Shown here: piece by piece, positions 7,629 through 32,704 of the stretch
Layout: each line of letters opens with the position of its first letter
Position numbering within the stretch: position 1 is the stretch's first letter
From: Streptomyces sp. NBC_01267
Lineage (GTDB): Bacteria > Actinomycetota > Actinomycetes > Streptomycetales > Streptomycetaceae
Direction: 5' to 3'
Length of the DNA: 64,000 nucleotides
Assembly (NCBI RefSeq): GCF_036241575.1
Contig: NZ_CP108455.1
Coordinates: forward strand, 1,198,501 to 1,262,500
Made by a program: the position numbers and the translations under genes
Notes under the pieces: generated by a model
Seen by the model: only the letters and a program-made list of their open reading frames with translations
Told to the model about the DNA's origin: nothing
The model's database searches: none

Positions 7629-7700
7629 TGGGCGATACTGGGTTCGAACCAGTGACCTCTTCGGTGTGAACGAAGCGCTCTCCCACTGAGCTAATCGCCC
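7629..7700 (-). tRNA. tRNA-Val, anticodon CAC
   Basis: 72 bases including the discriminator A. Acceptor arms GGGCGAT/ATCGCCC, anticodon stem CTTCG/CGAAG with loop TTCACAC (anticodon CAC, reading GTG), and T-arm with GGTTCGAACCC. CCA is not encoded. It is identical in sequence to the tRNA at 10398-10469. Confidence 0.97.
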
Positions 7701-16848: not shown

Positions 16849-16921
16849 GCGGACGTAGCTCAGTTGGTAGAGCGCAACCTTGCCAAGGTTGAGGTCGCCA
16901 GTTCGAACCTGGTCGTCCGCT
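16849..16921 (+). tRNA. tRNA-Gly, anticodon GCC
   Basis: 73 bases: acceptor GCGGACG/CGTCCGC, anticodon loop TTGCCAA (GCC), T-arm with GTTCGAACC, discriminator T. First gene of a five-tRNA cluster; CCA is not encoded. Confidence 0.97.
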
Positions 16922-16960
16922 CGTAGGAACCGGGGGATCTTCCCGAACCCCCGCACTCCT

Positions 16961-17031
16961 GGTGGAGTGGCCGAGAGGCGAGGCAACGGCCTGCAAAGCC
17001 GTCTACACGGGTTCAAATCCCGTCTCCACCT
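16961..17031 (+). tRNA. tRNA-Cys, anticodon GCA
   Basis: 71 bases: acceptor GGTGGAG/CTCCACC, anticodon loop CTGCAAA (GCA), T-arm GGTTCAAATCC, discriminator T (U73 is an identity element of tRNA-Cys). Only four bases separate it from the next tRNA, so they share a precursor. Confidence 0.97.
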
Positions 17032-17035
17032 CCAA

Positions 17036-17107
17036 GGACGATTAGCTCAGCGGGAGAGCGCTTCCCTGACACGGAAGAGGTCACTGGTTCAATCCCAGTA
17101 TCGTCCA
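17036..17107 (+). tRNA. tRNA-Val, anticodon GAC (copy 1, variant acceptor stem)
   Basis: 72 bases, loop CTGACAC (GAC, reading GTC/GTT), acceptor GGACGAT/ATCGTCC, discriminator A. It differs from the two copies downstream only by compensated changes in the acceptor stem. Confidence 0.97.
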
Positions 17108-17141
17108 CTGGATCTCCCACTACGGTGGGATGTCCGTACCC

Positions 17142-17213
17142 GCGCGATTAGCTCAGCGGGAGAGCGCTTCCCTGACACGGAAGAGGTCACTGGTTCAATC
17201 CCAGTATCGCGCA
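17142..17213 (+). tRNA. tRNA-Val, anticodon GAC (copy 2)
   Basis: 72 bases, loop CTGACAC, acceptor GCGCGAT/ATCGCGC, T-arm with the atypical GGTTCAATCCC, discriminator A. Identical to copy 3. Confidence 0.97.
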
Positions 17214-17264
17214 CGCAGTAAGGTGTGAAAGCACCGGCAGCACGCAGTACTCGCAGATTGTCCC

Positions 17265-17336
17265 GCGCGATTAGCTCAGCGGGAGAGCGCTTCCCTGACA
17301 CGGAAGAGGTCACTGGTTCAATCCCAGTATCGCGCA
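17265..17336 (+). tRNA. tRNA-Val, anticodon GAC (copy 3)
   Basis: 72 bases, identical to copy 2 (17142-17213). It is the last gene of the cluster and is followed within ten bases by a stem-loop terminator. Confidence 0.97.
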
Positions 17337-23241: not shown

Positions 23242-26200
23242 CTACTTCTCCGTGACGCCCGCCGAGTCGAAGGTGGCCACTTCGTGCATCGCGCGGGCCG
23301 CGCTCTGGACGACGGGGAGGGCGAGCAGGGCGCCGGTGCCCTCGCCGAGCCGCAGGTCGAGGTCGACCAGCGGGCGCAGGCCCAGCTTGTTGAGGGCGGC
23401 GACATGGCCGGGCTCCGCGCTGCGGTGGCCGGCGATGCAGGCCGCCAGCGCCTCGGGGGCGATCGCGCGGGCGACCAGGGCAGCCGCCCCCGCGCTCACT
23501 CCGTCCAGGATCACCGGGGTGCGGAGCGAGGCGCCGCCGAGCAGGAAGCCGACCAGCGCGGCGTGTTCGAGGCCGCCGACCGCGGCGAGGACGCCGATCG
23601 GGTCGGCGGGGTCGGGCTGGTGGAGTTCCAGACCCCGGCGGACGACGTCGACCTTGCGGGCGTGCATCTCGTCGTTGATGCCGGTGCCGCGGCCGGTGAC
23701 CTCGGTCGGGTCCTGGCCGGTGTAGACGCAGATCAGGGCGGCCGACACGGTGGTGTTGGCGATGCCCATCTCGCCGGTGAGCAGCGCCTTGTTGCCTGCG
23801 GCCACCAGGTCACGGGCCGTCTCGATGCCGACCTCGATCGCGGCGAGCGCTTCTTCCCGTGTCATCGCGGGACCGGTGGTGAAGTCGGCGGTGCCGGCTC
23901 GGACCTTGCGGGGCAACAGGCCCGGGGTGGCCGGGAGTTCCCCGGCGACACCCACGTCGACGACGCAGACCTCGGCCCCGACCTGATTGGCGAAGGCGTT
24001 GCAGACCGCTCCGCCGCCCAGGAAGTTGGCGACCATCTGGCAGGTCACTTCCTGCGGCCAGGCGGTGACGCCCTGGGCGTACACCCCGTGGTCCCCGGCG
24101 AAGACCGCGACGGCCGCGGGCTCCGGGATCGGCGGCGGACACATCCGGGACAGCCCGCTCAGCTGCGCGGAGATGATCTCCAGCATCCCGAGTGCCCCGG
24201 CGGGCTTGGTCATCCGCTTCTGGCGGTCCCAGGCCTCGCCGAGCGCCTTGGCGTCCAGCGGCCGGATATTGGTGATCGTCTCCTGGAGCAGGTCGTGCGG
24301 CTCCGCACCGGGGAGGGCGCGGCGGCCGTACGTCTCCTCGTGGACGACCCAGGACAGCGGGCGGCGCTTCGACCAGCCCGCCTGCATCAGTTCGGGCTCC
24401 TCGGGGAACTCGTCGACGTATCCCACGCAGAGGTAGGCGACGACTTCGAGGTGCTCGGGCAGGCCCAGGGCGCGGACCATCTCCCGCTCGTCGAAGAAGC
24501 TGACCCAGCCGACGCCGAGGCCCTCGGCGCGGGCGGCGAGCCAGAGGTTCTCGACGGCGAGGGCCGAGGAGTACGGCGCCATCTGCGGCTGGGTGTGCCG
24601 TCCGAGGGTGTGGCGGCCACCGCGGGTCGGGTCGGCGGTGACGACGATGTTGACCGGGGTGTCGAGGATGGCCTCGATCTTCAGTTCCTTGAACTGCTTG
24701 GCGCGGCCCTTGGGAAGGGACTTGGCGTAGGCGTCGCGCTGGCGCTGCGCCAGTTCGTGCATGGAGCGCCGGGTCTCTGCGGAACGGATGACCACGAAGT
24801 CCCAGGGCTGGGAGTGGCCGACGCTCGGCGCGGTGTGCGCGGCTTCGAGGACGCGCAGCAGCACCTCGTGCGGGATGGGGTCGCTGCGGAAGCCGTTGCG
24901 GATGTCGCGGCGTTCACGCATGACGCGCAGTACGGCTTCGCGTTCGGCGTCGTCGTACCCGGAGGCGGCGGGGGTGACCGGCTCGGCGGGGTCTGCCGCG
25001 GCTTCCGGTGCCTCTGCCGTTTCCGCCGTGGGTCCGGTCTCTGCGACGGCCTCTGCGGACTCGGCCTCGACGGGCGCCTGCTGGGGCTCGGGGGCCGGTG
25101 TCGCTACGGACTCGGGCTGAGGCACGGACCCGGGCCGGGGCTCGGCCGCTGTGGGCGGCTCGGTGACAGCGGCGGGGGCCGTCGGGGGCGCGGCTTCCTG
25201 GACGGAAGCGGTCTCCTGCGGTGCCTCGGCCTCGGCCGGGACCGGCACGGTCAGCTCCTCGGCGGGCGTCTGCCCGGCCGGTCCACCGTGGCGGGGGGCG
25301 GGCACCGTCGCCGCGACCGGCTCGGGCTGCTGCTCCCCGGCATCTATGGGAACGGCGTCAGGAACGGGAGCGGCCTCGGGCGCCGGAACGGCTTCGGGTG
25401 CGGGGACGTTCTCGGGTGCGGGGACGTTCTCGGGTGCGGGGACGTTCTCGGGTGCGGGGACGTTCTCGGGTGCGGGTGCGGGGACGCTCTCGGGTGCCAC
25501 CGTCCGTGTACCGGCGGGCTCCGCGTCCACCTCCGCTTCCGCTGCGACTGCGGCCGGGTCGGGCCAGGTTTCGAGGACCGGCTCCGGCTGTGCCTCGGGT
25601 GCGGGCACCGTGACGGGCTCGGCCACGGCTTCCACGACCGGTTCGGCTGCGGGTTCCGGCGCGGGCGTGGCCGCCGGTTCCACTGCTGCCACGACGGCGT
25701 CCACTGCGGGCTCAGCAGCCTCAGCGGGCTGCGGGACCTCTGCGACCTGCGCCGCCTCGGTGGTCCGCGGCTCCGCAGGGGCCTGCTCGGGCTGCGCTGC
25801 CGCGGGCTGCTCGGCCGGGGCCGTCACCACTGCCACCGGCGTCGGAGCGAGATGGGGAGCGGACGGCAACGAACCCTCGACCGGGACGAACCGGCCAGGT
25901 GCGGGCTGTCCGGCGTCGACCGGACCGGGCGCCGGCGCGTACGGCGCGGCAGCGGCCTGCGCGGCGTCGACCGGTACGTCCACCGGTACATCGGCAGCTA
26001 CGTCGACCGGTGCGGCGGCCGGGGTCTCCGGCTGGGCGGCCACCGGCTCGGGGAAGGCCGGTGCCTCGGGCTGGGCCGGGGCGGCGGGAACGGAAGGTGT
26101 GGGGGACTGCACCGGCTGCGGCTGCGAGGTCCACGCCACCCCGGCCTGCGGCGGGATAGCGCCGAGCTGCGGTCCGGGCAGCGCCTCCGCCTCGTCGCGC

Positions 26201-27041: not shown

Positions 27042-28220
27042 TCAGGGGCCACTTTCCGGACGGCGGCCGGACACCAGGAAGACCACCGACCGCGTGCGTT
27101 CCGCCCAGGACCGGGTGTCCAGATCCACGGACTGCAGCAACGCGCATTCGACGAGGTATCCGCCCTCGGCCAGAGCGGCTCCGAGCGCCTCGGCCTCGTC
27201 CCGGGTACCGGCGTGCGTCACGATGCGCTCGGGCCTGCGGTCGGCGCAGGCGGTGACAACTGCTGCCCCGCCGCCCCCGATCCGTACGACATCGGGCTCG
27301 GGAAGCCGCTCCAGGACATGGGGTGCGCGTCCGTGGATGATCTGGAGCCGCACGCCGAAGCGGCGGGCGGCGGCGTCGGTGCGCGCGCAGGCGGCGGGGT
27401 CGGCGTCGACGGCGATGACCGCGGCGCCGAAGCGGGCCGCCTCGACGGAGAGCGCCCCGCTGCCGGAGCCGATGTCCCAGACCAGGTCGCCGGTGCGCGG
27501 GCCGAGACGGGCCAGTTGGGCGGCGCGCAGCCCGGCGTGCTCGCCCTCGTTCAGGCCCTCTCCGTACTCCGCGGGCGGCAGCGCCCAGCCCCGTACGGCG
27601 GGGGCCTCGGCCGCTCCGTTGCCGCCGATGACGATGACGACATTCGGGTCGCGCCAGGTGTGGTCCGCCGCCTTGTCGGAGGTCAGCACGGTGACCTGCT
27701 CGCGCTCGGTGCCGAGTTCCTCGCAGATGACGAAGGTGCGGTGGACGCCTTCGAGGAGCAGGGCCAGCTCCGCGGGTCCGGCGCCGGGCGAGGTGAGCAC
27801 GGCGACCTTGCCGTGCGCCCGGCAGACATTGACCGCGCGCCGGAGCGTACGCGGGTGGGCGACGACGACCTCCGCGTCGTCCCACGGCATCCCGGCGCGG
27901 GCGAAAGCGGCGGCGACGGAGGAGACCGCGGGGACTACCTCGACCTCCAGGCCGTGTTCGGGCGCACGCAGGGTGCGTACGACGCCGTGGAAGCCCGGGT
28001 CTCCGTCGGCGAGGACAACGGCGCTGCCACGGTGCCCGGCGATCCGGCGGGCGGCGAGACTCACGCTGCCCAGGCGGATCCGCTCGGCGGAGGCGGGCAC
28101 TTCCGGAAGTGCGAGGTGGTGGGCGGCTCCGGCCACCAGGGTGGCCGCGGAGAGAGCGGACCTGGCGGCTGCGGTGAGGGGCGATCCGTCCCAGCCGATC
28201 ACCGTGACCCGGTCGGCCAT
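27042..28220 (-). CDS. cobL: Precorrin-6Y C5,15-methyltransferase (decarboxylating)
   Basis: 392 residues from ATG 28220 with AGGAG nine bases upstream. The N-terminal CbiE-type methyltransferase (VTVIGWDGSPL; LADGDPGFHGVVRTL) is fused to a C-terminal CbiT-type Rossmann methyltransferase (DLVWDIGSGSGALSVEAARF; VIAVDADPAACAR; VVRIGGGGAAVV). The fusion, as in aerobic CobL, carries out two methylations plus decarboxylation in corrin-ring synthesis. It is upstream of the cobT fusion on the same strand but 310 bp away. Confidence 0.93.
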   Translation of the reverse strand: MADRVTVIGWDGSPLTAAARSALSAATLVAGAAHHLALPEVPASAERIRLGSVSLAARRIAGHRGSAVVLADGDPGFHGVVRTLRAPEHGLEVEVVPAVSSVAAAFARAGMPWDDAEVVVAHPRTLRRAVNVCRAHGKVAVLTSPGAGPAELALLLEGVHRTFVICEELGTEREQVTVLTSDKAADHTWRDPNVVIVIGGNGAAEAPAVRGWALPPAEYGEGLNEGEHAGLRAAQLARLGPRTGDLVWDIGSGSGALSVEAARFGAAVIAVDADPAACARTDAAARRFGVRLQIIHGRAPHVLERLPEPDVVRIGGGGAAVVTACADRRPERIVTHAGTRDEAEALGAALAEGGYLVECALLQSVDLDTRSWAERTRSVVFLVSGRRPESGP

Positions 28221-29148: not shown

Positions 29149-30009
29149 TCAGGGCTTGACGGCTCCGAAGGCGGGGATGACCGCGCCCTGGTACTTGTCG
29201 TCGATGAACTTCTTCACCTGCGGGGAGTTGAGGAGCTCGGCGAGCTTCACCACGCGCGGGTCCTTCTCGCTCCCCTTCTTGACCACGAGGATGTTGGCGT
29301 ACGGGTTGCCGTCGGCCTTCTCCAGGGCGAGCGCGTCCTTGGCGGGCGTGAGCTTCGCGTCGATCGCGTAGTTGCCGTTGATCACGGCGGCGTCGACGTC
29401 GTCCAGGGCGCGGGGCAGCGTGGCCGCCTCCAGCTCCTTGAACTTCAGGCCCTTGCTGTCCTTGATGTCCGAGAGCCCGGCGTCACTTCCCACGCCGGGC
29501 TTGAGGGTGATCAGCCCGTTGTCCGCGAGCAGCTTCAGCGCGCGGCCCTCGTTGGTCGTGTCGTTGGGGACGGCCACCGTCTTGCCCGAGGTGAGGGACT
29601 TCAGGTCCTTGGTCTTCTTCGAGTACAGCCCCAGCGGCTCCAGGTGCACGCCGACGACGGGCACGAGGTGGGTGCCGTTCTTCTTGTTGAAGTCGTCGAG
29701 GTAGGGCTTGTGCTGGAAGAAGTTCGCATCGACCTGGCCGGTCTCGGTGGCCTTGTTCGGCAGGACGTAGTCGGTGAACTCCTTGACCTGGAGCTTGAGT
29801 CCGGCCTTGGCCGCCAGATGGGTCTTGACGTAGTCGAGGATGTCGGCGTGCGGGACCGGGGAGGCCGCGACGATCAGCGGCTTGCTGGTGTCCGCCTTGG
29901 CGCCCTCGGGCTTGCTGGACGGGTCGGACGAGGTGCCGCAGGCGGTGAGACCGAAGGCCAGGGCGGCGACGGCGGCAGCGGACACGGAGATCTTGACTGA
30001 GTTACGCAC
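29149..30009 (-). CDS. metQ: Methionine-binding lipoprotein MetQ
   Basis: 286 residues from GTG 30009. Lipoprotein signal peptide with lipobox LTAC at about residue 24 (AALAFGLTACGTSSD). The mature protein matches the NlpA/MetQ family: PLIVAASPVPHADILDYVK, VDANFFQHKPYLDDFNKKNG, VPNDTTNEGRALKLL, AAVINGNYAIDAKL. It captures methionine (possibly D-Met or formyl-Met) outside the membrane and hands it to MetI. It is the last gene of metN-metI-metQ. Confidence 0.95.
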   Translation of the reverse strand: MRNSVKISVSAAAVAALAFGLTACGTSSDPSSKPEGAKADTSKPLIVAASPVPHADILDYVKTHLAAKAGLKLQVKEFTDYVLPNKATETGQVDANFFQHKPYLDDFNKKNGTHLVPVVGVHLEPLGLYSKKTKDLKSLTSGKTVAVPNDTTNEGRALKLLADNGLITLKPGVGSDAGLSDIKDSKGLKFKELEAATLPRALDDVDAAVINGNYAIDAKLTPAKDALALEKADGNPYANILVVKKGSEKDPRVVKLAELLNSPQVKKFIDDKYQGAVIPAFGAVKP

Positions 30010-30081: not shown

Positions 30082-30753
30082 CTACGAGGAGGTGCGCCCC
30101 CGGCGCGCCAGCAGACGTACGGCCGCGTCGCCGATCAGCTGGATCAGGGTGACGAGCACGACCAGCACGATCACTGTCGCGATCATGAAGTTGTTCTCGA
30201 AGCGCTGGTAGCCGTAGGTGATCGCCTTGGAGCCGAGCCCTTCGCCGCCGACCGCTCCGGCCATCGCGGAGTACCCGATGAGGACGATGACGGTGGTGGT
30301 GACTCCGGAGACCAGCGACGGCAGCGACTGCGGGAGCAGCACCTTGCGGACGATGGTGGGCACGCTGCCGCCCATCGACTGGACCGCTTCGACGAGGCCG
30401 TGGTCGACCTCGCGGACGGCGGTCTCGACGAGCCGGGCGAAGAAGGGGATGGCGCCGATCGCGAGGGGCACGATCATCGCCGTCGGGCCGATGAAGGTGC
30501 CGACGACGAAGGTGGTGAACGGGATCAGCGCGATCAGCAGGATGATGAACGGCAGGGAGCGCCCGATGTTCACGATCACGCCGACGATCTTGTTGACCGG
30601 GCGGTTCTGGAGCAGCCCGCCCTTGTCGGTGAGGACCAGGAGCACCCCGAGCGGCAGCCCGACGAGGACCGTGACGACCGTGGCCCACAGGACCATGTAG
30701 AGGGTGTCGGTGGTTCCCTGGGAGAGCAGCGGCTGCATTTCCGACCAGTTCAC
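30082..30753 (-). CDS. metI: Methionine ABC transporter permease MetI
   Basis: 223 residues from GTG 30753, which overlaps the metN stop (GTGA). Five to six transmembrane helices with the permease EAA loop (LVEAVQSMGGSVPTIVRKV). Start MNWSEMQPLLSQGTTDTLYM is typical of MetI. It forms the membrane channel of the MetNIQ importer; translation is probably coupled to metN. Confidence 0.95.
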   Translation of the reverse strand: MNWSEMQPLLSQGTTDTLYMVLWATVVTVLVGLPLGVLLVLTDKGGLLQNRPVNKIVGVIVNIGRSLPFIILLIALIPFTTFVVGTFIGPTAMIVPLAIGAIPFFARLVETAVREVDHGLVEAVQSMGGSVPTIVRKVLLPQSLPSLVSGVTTTVIVLIGYSAMAGAVGGEGLGSKAITYGYQRFENNFMIATVIVLVVLVTLIQLIGDAAVRLLARRGRTSS

Positions 30754-31787
30754 TTGACGCCCTCCTCGGTGAGCACGGGGATCTCGGCACCGGCCACTTC
30801 GACCTGGAGGCCCTGTTCGCGCAGGAACCCGATGGGCACGACGTTCTCCTCGAACGAGCCGGGCAGTTCGATGCGCATCCGGCCGATCTGGTGACCGCCG
30901 ACGGTGTCCATCGCTGCACCCAGGATCGATATGTCGATGTTGTAGGTACGGGAGAGCTGGGAGATGACCGGGCGGGCGGTGCTGTCCCCGTGGAAGGTGA
31001 TGTCGATGACCGTGCGGCCCGGTTCCGAGGGGTCGCCGCCCACCGGGAACAGCTCGTGGGCGAGTTCGGAGCCGGGGGTCGCGAGGAGTTCGCCGACGGT
31101 TCCCGACTCCACGATCCGGCCCCGCTTCATCAGCGCGGCCGAGTCGCAGACCGTCTTGACGACGTCCATCTCGTGCGTGATGAGCAGGACGGTCAGACCC
31201 AGCTGCCGGTTGAGATCGCGCAGCAGCTGAAGGATCGAGCGGGTGGTCTCCGGGTCGAGGGCGGACGTCGCCTCGTCGGACAGCAGGACCTTCGGGTCAC
31301 CCGCCAGCGCTCGGGCGATGCCGACGCGCTGCTTCTGCCCGCCGGAGAGCTGCCCGGGATAGGACTTCGCCCGGTCGGCGAGCCCGACCAGTTCCAGCAG
31401 TTCGAGCGCCTTGCGCGAGCGGGTCCTGCCGGTGACTCCGAGGATCTCCAGCGGCAGTTCGACGTTGTCCTGCACGGTGCGCGAGGACAGCAGGTTGAAG
31501 TGCTGGAAGACCATGCCGATGCGGCTGCGGGCGGCGCGCAGTTCACGGCCTGCGCGGGAGCCGCGTCCGGCGAGGGCGGTGAGGTCGACACCGTCCACGC
31601 TCACGGTGCCCGAGGTGGGCCGCTCGAGGAGGTTGACGCAGCGGATGAGCGAGGACTTCCCGGCGCCGCTCTGCCCTACGACGCCGAACACCTCGCCCTC
31701 CCGTACGTGCAGATCGACCCCGTCCAGGGCGGTGACCTCACGGCTGCGCGAGGCGTAGACCTTCGTCAGGCCGGTGGTGGTGATCAC
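30750..31787 (-). CDS. metN: Methionine ABC transporter ATPase MetN
   Basis: 345 residues from GTG 31787 (MITTTGLTKVY). Walker A GQSGAGKSS, Q-loop VFQHFNLL, signature LSGGQKQRV, Walker B KVLLSDEATSALD and H-loop LLITHEMDV are all present. A C-terminal NIL (ACT-like) domain follows (residues about 260-345, VIDITFHGDSTARPVISQLS), which in E. coli MetN binds methionine and inhibits transport (trans-inhibition). First gene of the metNIQ operon, about 210 bp after a putative Met/Cys leader peptide. Confidence 0.95.
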   Translation of the reverse strand: MITTTGLTKVYASRSREVTALDGVDLHVREGEVFGVVGQSGAGKSSLIRCVNLLERPTSGTVSVDGVDLTALAGRGSRAGRELRAARSRIGMVFQHFNLLSSRTVQDNVELPLEILGVTGRTRSRKALELLELVGLADRAKSYPGQLSGGQKQRVGIARALAGDPKVLLSDEATSALDPETTRSILQLLRDLNRQLGLTVLLITHEMDVVKTVCDSAALMKRGRIVESGTVGELLATPGSELAHELFPVGGDPSEPGRTVIDITFHGDSTARPVISQLSRTYNIDISILGAAMDTVGGHQIGRMRIELPGSFEENVVPIGFLREQGLQVEVAGAEIPVLTEEGVK

Positions 31788-32344
31788 AGAATTTCCGTCA
31801 CTGTCGAGTGCGCGGCGCGGTGTCCGCCGGCACGGGGCATTCGTCTGGATGCGCGGCACGGCCGTAACGGTGGTGACCGGAAGGCGCTGCGCGCGGGGCG
31901 AGTCCGCTGCCGTCCACGGTGGAACGTACGGACTCGAACGGCCGGACTCGAACGGTTCGGCTCTCGGTCCCGCTTCGGGGCGCGGGCAAGGACCCTCAGA
32001 AAGCGCGCATTCGACACATACAACGAGCACCGGGCGTCGTGATCGCCTCGGTCGCAAAGGTGCGGCTGCTCGTCGTGGTCATGCGGCAAGTAAAGCAGAC
32101 GTGAGGAGCGCCCCCTTCCGGCTGTCCGAATACCGGACGCCGGTGGATCGGTCGTCCCGAGCCTGCCGAAACCGCCGTCGAACCGCTTGTGACCTGCGTC
32201 GATGCCATGTCGGCCGGGACGGTCACGGCGTCGGGCGGCACCCGGCGGCACCCGTGCGCTGTGGCCAAGGCCACGATCTTGGTCCCGGCCCCGGAGCCGG
32301 GGGCGCGCGCGGCGGACCGTTCGCCCCGTAATACCCTCGGCTCC
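31788..32344. other. Divergent leader region upstream of metN
   Basis: 557 bp between metN and the membrane protein at 32345. It holds the leader-peptide frame (31996-32082), a GC-rich hairpin directly after its stop (GGTCCCGC at 31966-31973 pairing with 31982-31986 and 31992-31994) and a 13-bp direct repeat, CGGACTCGAACGG, at 31929-31941 and 31943-31955. A GTCCG-N5-CGGAC inverted repeat lies further upstream, at about 32123-32137. No SAM-I, SAM-II or SAM-IV core is recognisable. Confidence 0.5.
31996..32082 (-). CDS. Putative Met/Cys leader peptide of the metNIQ operon
   Basis: 28 codons from ATG 32082: MTTTSSRTFATEAITTPG, then ARCMCRMRAF and TGA. Residues 21-25 are Cys-Met-Cys-Arg-Met, coded TGT ATG TGT CGA ATG, using codons (TGT, CGA) that are rare in Streptomyces. 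A TTTACT hexamer (32089-32094) six bases before the ATG would give a leaderless mRNA, a common form for actinobacterial attenuator peptides. A GC-rich hairpin follows the stop at once, and metN begins about 210 bp on. Ribosome stalling at Cys/Met codons could switch the downstream structure. Inference; no direct evidence of translation. Confidence 0.55.
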   Translation of the reverse strand: MTTTSSRTFATEAITTPGARCMCRMRAF

Positions 32345-32704
32345 ATGCTTGTCGCCCTGACGGTCGTGGTCACAGTGGCCGCGCTCGCACTCGCCGCCTG
32401 GTGCGGCTACGCCGCCTACCGGGACCAGCCCACCAAGGACTGGCACTTCATCGGCATGGCCGTGGTGTCGGTCCTCGCACTGGCACAGCTGGTCGTCGGA
32501 ATCGTGCAACTGGGGCGGGGTGAGCAGCCGGAGCAGGGCAAGGCGATCTTCATCGCGTATCTGATCGGCGCGTTCGCCGCCGTGCCCGCGGCCGGGTTCC
32601 TCTCGCTGACCGAACGGACCCGCTGGGGGCCGGTGACGGTGGCCGCGGGCGCGGTGGTCCTGGCCGTGCTGGAAGTCCGGCTCTACGACATCTGGGGAAA
32701 CTGA
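32345..32704 (+). CDS. Small integral membrane protein (four helices)
   Basis: 119 residues from ATG 32345. Four hydrophobic segments (ALTVVVTVAALALAAWCGYA; FIGMAVVSVLALAQLVVGIV; IFIAYLIGAFAAVPAAGF; VTVAAGAVVLAVLEVRLYDI) with short loops. There is no enzymatic motif. It is two bases upstream of the next gene (TGACGATG), so the pair is one transcription unit. Function unknown; conserved pairs of this kind occur widely in Streptomyces. Confidence 0.8.
   Translation: MLVALTVVVTVAALALAAWCGYAAYRDQPTKDWHFIGMAVVSVLALAQLVVGIVQLGRGEQPEQGKAIFIAYLIGAFAAVPAAGFLSLTERTRWGPVTVAAGAVVLAVLEVRLYDIWGN

Follow-up and report, generated by a model that had tools for sequence, protein, structure and literature searches.

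A candidate Cys/Met attenuator ahead of the methionine importer operon metNIQ in Streptomyces: a metL-type leader with a conserved RNA fold inside its reading frame

In the window (the whole stretch of 64,000 nucleotides that was analysed) the methionine importer operon metNIQ is preceded by a short reading frame, which we consider, with somewhat more confidence than doubt, to be a ribosome-mediated Cys/Met attenuator of that operon. Judged by its sequence, the leader is the orthologue of S. lividans metL. An earlier reading of the letters alone (hereafter the sequence-only reading) had proposed such a leader at this place. The features concerned are the following:

31996..32082, minus strand: leader ORF (metL orthologue), 28 codons plus TGA; from the frame test and S. 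lividans metL (PMC8079986, in excerpt)
32005..32022, minus strand: control codons 21-26, TGT ATG TGT CGA ATG CGC; from codon tables and the frame test
32089..32097, minus strand: extended -10, TGC-TTTACT (TGCTTTACT), 6 nt ahead of the leader ATG
31969..31986, minus strand: post-stop hairpin CCCGC-GCCCCGAA-GCGGG; core in 155/200 leaders
31788..31995, minus strand: spacer of 208 nt between the leader stop and metN, richer in C than in G, no U-tract
30750..31787, minus strand: metN, starting with GTG and encoding an ABC ATPase with a NIL domain; 379.7 bits against MetN, its best NCBIfam model, which has a cut-off of 499.7
30082..30753, minus strand: metI, permease; best NCBIfam model MetI, 208.9 bits, below its cut-off of 212
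29149..30009, minus strand: metQ, NlpA-type substrate-binding lipoprotein; PF03180, 309 bits, MetQ models below cut-off

The leader ORF, read from 32082 to 31996, translates to MTTTSSRTFATEAITTPGARCMCRMRAF* and ends in Cys(TGT)-Met-Cys(TGT)-Arg(CGA)-Met-Arg-Ala-Phe; the 28-codon frame, with Cys-Met-Cys-Arg-Met near its end and a TGA stop, lies exactly where the sequence-only reading had placed it. The rare Arg codon CGA occupies 32013..32011, the fifth codon ahead of the stop. The GTG of metN (31787) follows 208 bp past this stop on the same strand, in agreement with an estimate of about 210 bp. A -10-like TTTACT, taken at that time as a sign of leaderless initiation, was found at 32094..32089 with a TG one base upstream, forming an extended -10. 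The same arrangement (TGnTT[TA]A[CA]T and a gap of 6-7 nt to the ATG) occurs in 188 of 200 leaders; the second-family leaders (n=6) have a different -10. No SAM riboswitch had been visible by eye, and no Rfam family reached gathering score in the leader stretch: the whole window returned only tRNAs at this score, and the search of 31700-32400 gave a single match, ASdes, below threshold (E 0.16) and inside metN. Concerning the operon, Pfam assigns ABC_tran and NIL to metN, BPD_transp_1 to metI and Lipoprotein_9 to metQ, and none of the top NCBIfam models MetN, MetI and MetQ attains its curated cut-off.

The basic finding is not new, because S. lividans metL is already in print. Droste et al. 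(2021) describe metL (SLIV_29928) of S. lividans TK24, MSTTSDRTPATEATTTPGARCMCRRMCAF, as a leaderless frame upstream of metNIQ with a mapped start (PMC8079986, in excerpt), and one of our loci, L291, encodes the published peptide letter for letter. The window leader resembles metL in its site before metNIQ, its leaderless-type promoter and its core (TEATTTPGARCMCR..MCAF in metL, TEAITTPGARCMCRMRAF in the window), and differs from it in having one Arg fewer after CMCR and an Arg in place of the last Cys. In the excerpted text termination at metL is listed as 'unclear' and the leader is called methionine-dependent, with Met and Thr named (PMC8079986), whereas conservation here indicates Cys, Met and CGA. 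A search of the literature on metNIQ/metL leaders gave no other paper on this leader among the matches listed, and metN is absent from the main texts of four Streptomyces transcript-boundary papers. For the clamp inside the ORF, the CGA at its fixed place and the candidate operator, all discussed below, we could find no earlier description in the metNIQ/metL leader literature.

MetN loci were identified through the NIL domain in three overlapping draws, which gave loci in 117/121 genomes of the genus, 89/99 of the order and 86/101 of the family. We assembled 212 metN upstream regions, consisting of six Streptomyces records, one Actinoplanes record and 205 loci; 110 of the 117 genus genomes were covered, order and family rows were taken in part, and a few regions duplicate a genome. 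The string CMC was present in 117/212 regions, and a looser Cys/Met rule was satisfied by 203/212. Five of the nine rows missed by this rule nonetheless carry the leader (L141, L211, L212, L247, L288), L219 and L020 (Actinoplanes), also among the nine, have no leader, and the remaining two, L125 and L146, are truncated where their contigs end. The loose rule also passes L091 and L202, which look like false hits; L202 was dropped by spacer length and L091 was kept. Later counts refer to 200 distinct leader-plus-spacer sequences with a spacer of 90-400 nt, selected by the looser rule, which requires Cys/Met near the end. Alignment A1 contains 119 of 121 distinct leaders, L213 and L215 being excluded for their long N-terminal extensions.

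Evidence of translation comes from a frame test in which the extended -10 with its ATG was located and then the nearest CGAATG was taken, no ORF being required. The promoter element plus ATG was present in 199/212 upstream regions, CGAATG followed in 196 of these 199, and the distance between ATG and CGAATG was divisible by three in 196/196 cases, over 11 different values from 63 to 135 nt. A frame kept so strictly over 11 spacings argues that the leader is translated, and comparison therefore shows an ORF apparently translated under selection. In 178 of the 196 the CGA is the fifth codon ahead of an in-frame stop. Insertions in the tail are whole codons, chiefly Cys, Met, Arg or Pro. The sequence-only reading had made its case depend on conservation of the frame across species and had suggested aligning metN upstream regions to follow the peptide C-terminus; both frame and peptide are conserved, and the last residues are so across genera.

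Codon choice in the leaders is distinctive, and TGT and CGA, previously remarked upon as rare, are both enriched over metN of the same loci. In 200 leaders TGT makes up 414 of 643 Cys codons versus 3 of 199 in metN, and CGA makes up 203 of 769 Arg codons versus 88 of 3085. CGA is presumably a codon that is read slowly. Synonymous sites are nearly frozen among 112 distinct 28-residue leaders, with AGC-5, ACC-11 and GAG-12 constant in 112/112 and CGA-24 in 109/112. Cys/Met control codons near the ORF end are present according to codon counts: the final 12 residues contain 2-5 Cys in 200/200 leaders, a Cys number partly set by the selection rule, and a single leader has no Met there. The residue after Met-25 is Arg in the window and in 28 of the 112 28-residue leaders, a class in which the third Cys is replaced by Arg.

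The RNA of the leader ORF folds as a three-way junction, in which P1 pairs codons 3-5 with codons 19-21 and encloses the hairpins P2 (codons 7-10) and P3 (codons 11-18):

32068..32076, minus strand: P1 5' arm, ACGACGAGC, codons 3-5, pairing with 32028..32020; from folding, covariation and the recoding test
32020..32028, minus strand: P1 3' arm, GCTCGTTGT, codons 19-21, including the first control Cys codon; from folding, covariation and the recoding test
32053..32064, minus strand: P2 hairpin, CGCA/TGCG, codons 7-10; from folding and covariation
32029..32052, minus strand: P3 hairpin, ACCGAGGCG/CGCCCGGT, codons 11-18; from folding and covariation

In A1 96.3% of the cells of this junction are paired, compared with 25-45% for slid partners, and 26 cells carry a change on both sides, found at codons 5/19 (11 leaders), 13/16 (5), 8/9 (4), 7/10 (3) and 3/21 (3). 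None of 500 shuffles matched the pairing, the both-sided changes or the covariation score, tests that are inflated by relatedness among the leaders; weaker measures were the number of pairs with both-sided change (reached by 8/500 shuffles) and further pair types (119/500). We also evaluated whether pairing exceeds what the peptide imposes, keeping each peptide fixed, redrawing its codons 40 times from metN usage, and measuring the expected pairs between leader nucleotides 4-18 and the control-codon segment, with leaders grouped by peptide pattern. Real against recoded values were 10.5 and 1.5 pairs in 121 Streptomyces-type leaders (94% of them individually at p 0.05 or less), 10.7 and 1.8 in six second-family leaders, 10.0 and 2.1 in seven other leaders, 7.1 and 0.9 in seven TGAM-type and 7.0 and 1.3 in 16 PTG-type leaders. 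The excess of P1 was absent from the five MF-type leaders (1.6 and 1.9). P1-type pairing therefore exceeds its synonymous controls in five of the six groups, which span two families. Total fold energy lies clearly beyond the recoded control in the Streptomyces type only (mean z -1.6), and other peptide groups fold differently with different sequences.

Such conservation at the RNA level could mean that a structured, riboswitch-like RNA is the conserved element and the reading frame incidental, as the near-invariant synonymous sites and the compensating changes of the junction might suggest. We regard this as extremely improbable, given a frame held in all 196 cases over 11 lengths, the divergence of other groups in both fold and sequence, and the lack of an Rfam match above gathering score. 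Nor do we find it at all probable, though slightly less far-fetched, that the peptide itself acts, as a stable small protein or a nascent-chain arrest peptide: across genera no part of the peptide is as constant as its C-terminal residues ahead of the stop, but the N-terminal part is codon-fixed where P1-P3 pair and differs in other groups.

Downstream of the ORF, the GC-rich hairpin that had been noted after the frame begins 10 nt past the stop, with a stem of 5 bp in the window. In 155/200 leaders its core, CGC-GCCCCGAA-GCG, is found no further than 95 nt past the stop, flanked by CT/AG in 131 and by CC/GG, the window form, in 7. The loop GCCCCGAA (window 31974-31981) is nearly constant, and 152 of the 155 have GGG or GGT no more than 6 nt from the stop; the loop could conceivably form a pseudoknot with the stop region. 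As for the spacer, C exceeds G in 200/200 sequences with a mean skew of 0.224, against 0.029 and 120/200 in control upstream stretches; the first 188 nt of the window spacer, with 78 C and 61 G, are less skewed than the mean. The longest T-run is at most 3 in 184/200 spacers, and a terminator scan of the window spacer found no terminator-like site. Taken together, a C-rich spacer with few T-runs and no terminator-like site fits Rho better than an intrinsic terminator, a circumstantial argument for Rho as the terminating factor.

Alternatively, GC-rich hairpins lacking a U-tract ('I-shaped'), namely the post-stop hairpin and further ones in the spacer, could terminate transcription by themselves, with the stalled ribosome as the switch. 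Conservation of the hairpin core, with some compensating flanks, would fit, and highly structured 3' ends without U-tracts are reported in S. clavuligerus (PMC8269248, in excerpt); we nevertheless judge this quite unlikely in view of the 5 bp stem and the empty terminator scan, and because no alternative (antiterminator) pairing for the control codons or the P1 5' arm was found in the spacer, where that arm has no competitor. A mid-spacer partner of the control codons, CCCCGCGCAC, was rejected, since its pairing tracks leader class and is indistinguishable from phylogeny. The other alternative is translational: the leader end UGUCGA-AU-GUGCGC would pair with GCGCAC-UCGACA and close the metN ribosome-binding site, which a stalled ribosome would keep open. 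The consensus fold of 40 near relatives contains this pairing. TCGACA is found no more than 45 nt from metN in 131/154 Streptomyces-type leaders (elsewhere it occurs at 3 of 32069 positions in 200 spacers), and the genuine leader tail has its best binding site 8-12 nt upstream of metN, at about -17.4 versus -11 for shuffled tails. In mycobacteria, poly-Cys leaders are reported to affect translation of downstream genes (PMC9031893, in excerpt). However, one in four random 24-mers drawn from the same leader or spacer pairs just as well, one-observation shuffles give p 0.047-0.18, and TGTCGAATG is retained in lineages without TCGACA. With GCGCACTCGACA as the sequestering partner, own pairs (-18.7) were no better than swapped ones (-18.9), covariation was absent, and the candidate was rejected.

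Simulation of stalled, stop and free states in 200 leaders likewise showed access upstream of the metN start to be little changed. For the 154 Streptomyces-type leaders, stall minus stop averaged +0.023 (16 above +0.1, 6 below -0.1) and stall minus free +0.034 (26 above +0.1, 4 below -0.1), the latter asymmetry being in favour of the translational explanation; in the other 46 leaders the changes were -0.006 and +0.002. A translational switch at the metN start is weakly suggested by evidence that does not covary, and as an explanation of the whole leader we consider it unlikely. As an observation apart, CACTCGACAGTGACGGAA (window 31785-31810), directly ahead of metN, is strongly conserved in Streptomyces-type leaders.

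Of the attenuator proposed by the sequence-only reading, a translated leaderless-type leader with Cys/Met codons before metNIQ has stood up to comparison, the start of its orthologue being mapped (PMC8079986, in excerpt). The part according to which stalling alters downstream folding has fared less well: the hairpin is short, the spacer shows no terminator, the simulated effect of a stall is slight and the duplex between leader end and metN does not covary.

The attenuator that we favour would operate as follows. With an ample supply of charged Cys- and Met-tRNA, the ribosome would run through the leader and leave at its stop, and the naked C-rich spacer would allow premature termination before metN, most likely by Rho. 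When Cys or Met is scarce, the ribosome would stall on the Cys/Met codons, CGA providing a built-in slow step, and by covering the stop-proximal RNA it would let RNA polymerase reach metN. We infer the output step, through Rho or otherwise. Owing to P1, the leader would be used mainly by the first ribosome, the one that loads while the control codons have yet to be transcribed. A stricter form of this model, an attenuator for the first ribosome only, can be put forward tentatively and strikes us as possible rather than likely; it combines a clamp that would close after about 60 nt of transcription, timing by CGA, a Rho decision on the C-rich spacer, and recurrence of the clamp, with different sequences, in several peptide groups and the second family. 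Its argument is that, with a leaderless 5' end complementary to the control-codon segment, only an already loaded ribosome would report Cys/Met supply to the polymerase. It should be noted that mutating the control codons of the ilvB leader in S. coelicolor was without effect (cited in PMC1262725, in excerpt), so that leader codons need not act as expected in Streptomyces.

A protein-based layer beside the attenuator is suggested by a conserved palindrome upstream of the promoter:

32124..32138, no strand assigned: palindrome GTCCGGTATTCGGAC, candidate operator of IclR type, perhaps for NdgR; in 157/200 leaders

GTCC-N7-GGAC occurs between -75 and -35 of the leader ATG in 157/200 leaders and in 0/200 of each of two control stretches, with starts clustering near -57 and -67, about 10 bp apart. 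SCO1557-SCO1559 are presumably the gene numbers of metNIQ. The main text of PMC4340878 mentions neither 'metN' nor SCO1557-SCO1559, and several NdgR sites listed in that paper (in excerpt) share the GTCC-N7-GGAC frame, a form that matches IclR-type sites (PMC8222616, in excerpt). In its own genome the motif has 15 matches with at most two mismatches, and the places with one mismatch are the leader's own and G000:C1:1856244. A protein bound there, at the palindrome of the leader, probably determines how strong the promoter is.

Poly-Cys leaderless leaders of mycobacteria are said to have been described by Canestrari in 2020. These likewise are short leaderless ORFs upstream of sulphur genes, with Cys codons close to their stop, and differ from the present leader, in which Cys alternates with Met and Arg, the ORF contains a junction and the gene is metNIQ; a contiguous Cys run is absent, the window having TGT ATG TGT and the Cys codons of most relatives being interspersed with Met and Arg. 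In 2005 Seliverstov and colleagues proposed candidate leaders for cys operons in Mycobacterium and P. acnes and for cbs in B. longum (PMC1262725, in excerpt); they too have Cys codons near the stop and no terminator, and Rho was suggested by the authors, but genes and peptides are others. In the same excerpt they state that they saw no conserved regulatory RNA structure ahead of methionine operons. Classical trp-type attenuators share with our leader the control codons in an ORF before the cognate operon, whereas here no terminator/antiterminator pair with a U-tract was found and a strong fold lies inside the ORF. Through the analysis, a leader so far catalogued in S. lividans gains a defined anatomy, found across its family and in a second family of the order, and what is conserved through the peptide, through codon choice and through RNA structure can be told apart. 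Antibiotic-producing bacteria may, on this view, adjust methionine uptake through a sensor of both Cys and Met. For high-GC bacteria the leader is also a clean case in which to study attenuation that lacks an intrinsic terminator, a question left open for cys leaders in 2005 (PMC1262725, in excerpt).

The leader is present in Streptomyces, in further genera of its family and in one more family of the order. Beyond the order, no leader of metL type precedes metN at the 16 MetN loci that gave a metN match (one with only 49 nt upstream), and five further loci there have no metN match. At four loci of one other family of the class (L319, L322, L326, L327) metN is preceded by other short ORFs in which Cys, Met or Arg is frequent, for example ...RVMCRGTRMCGTARMCAMGGMPSMR at L319, possibly unrelated leaders of like kind. 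The genome of the window holds one convincing copy; in a model search for a second, the next match had an E of 0.03 and lay antisense to a long open frame.

The surroundings of the operon gave some minor observations. Downstream of metNIQ and a GNAT gene, a B12-synthesis gene for a CbiE/CbiT-type precorrin methyltransferase occupies 27042-28220 on the minus strand, with CbiE above cut-off and CbiT below. An 18-bp unit is repeated in tandem at 25394-25497, in about 4.6 perfect copies. A cluster of five tRNA genes lies at 16849-17336 on the plus strand, and two others are found at 7629 and 10398 on the minus strand.
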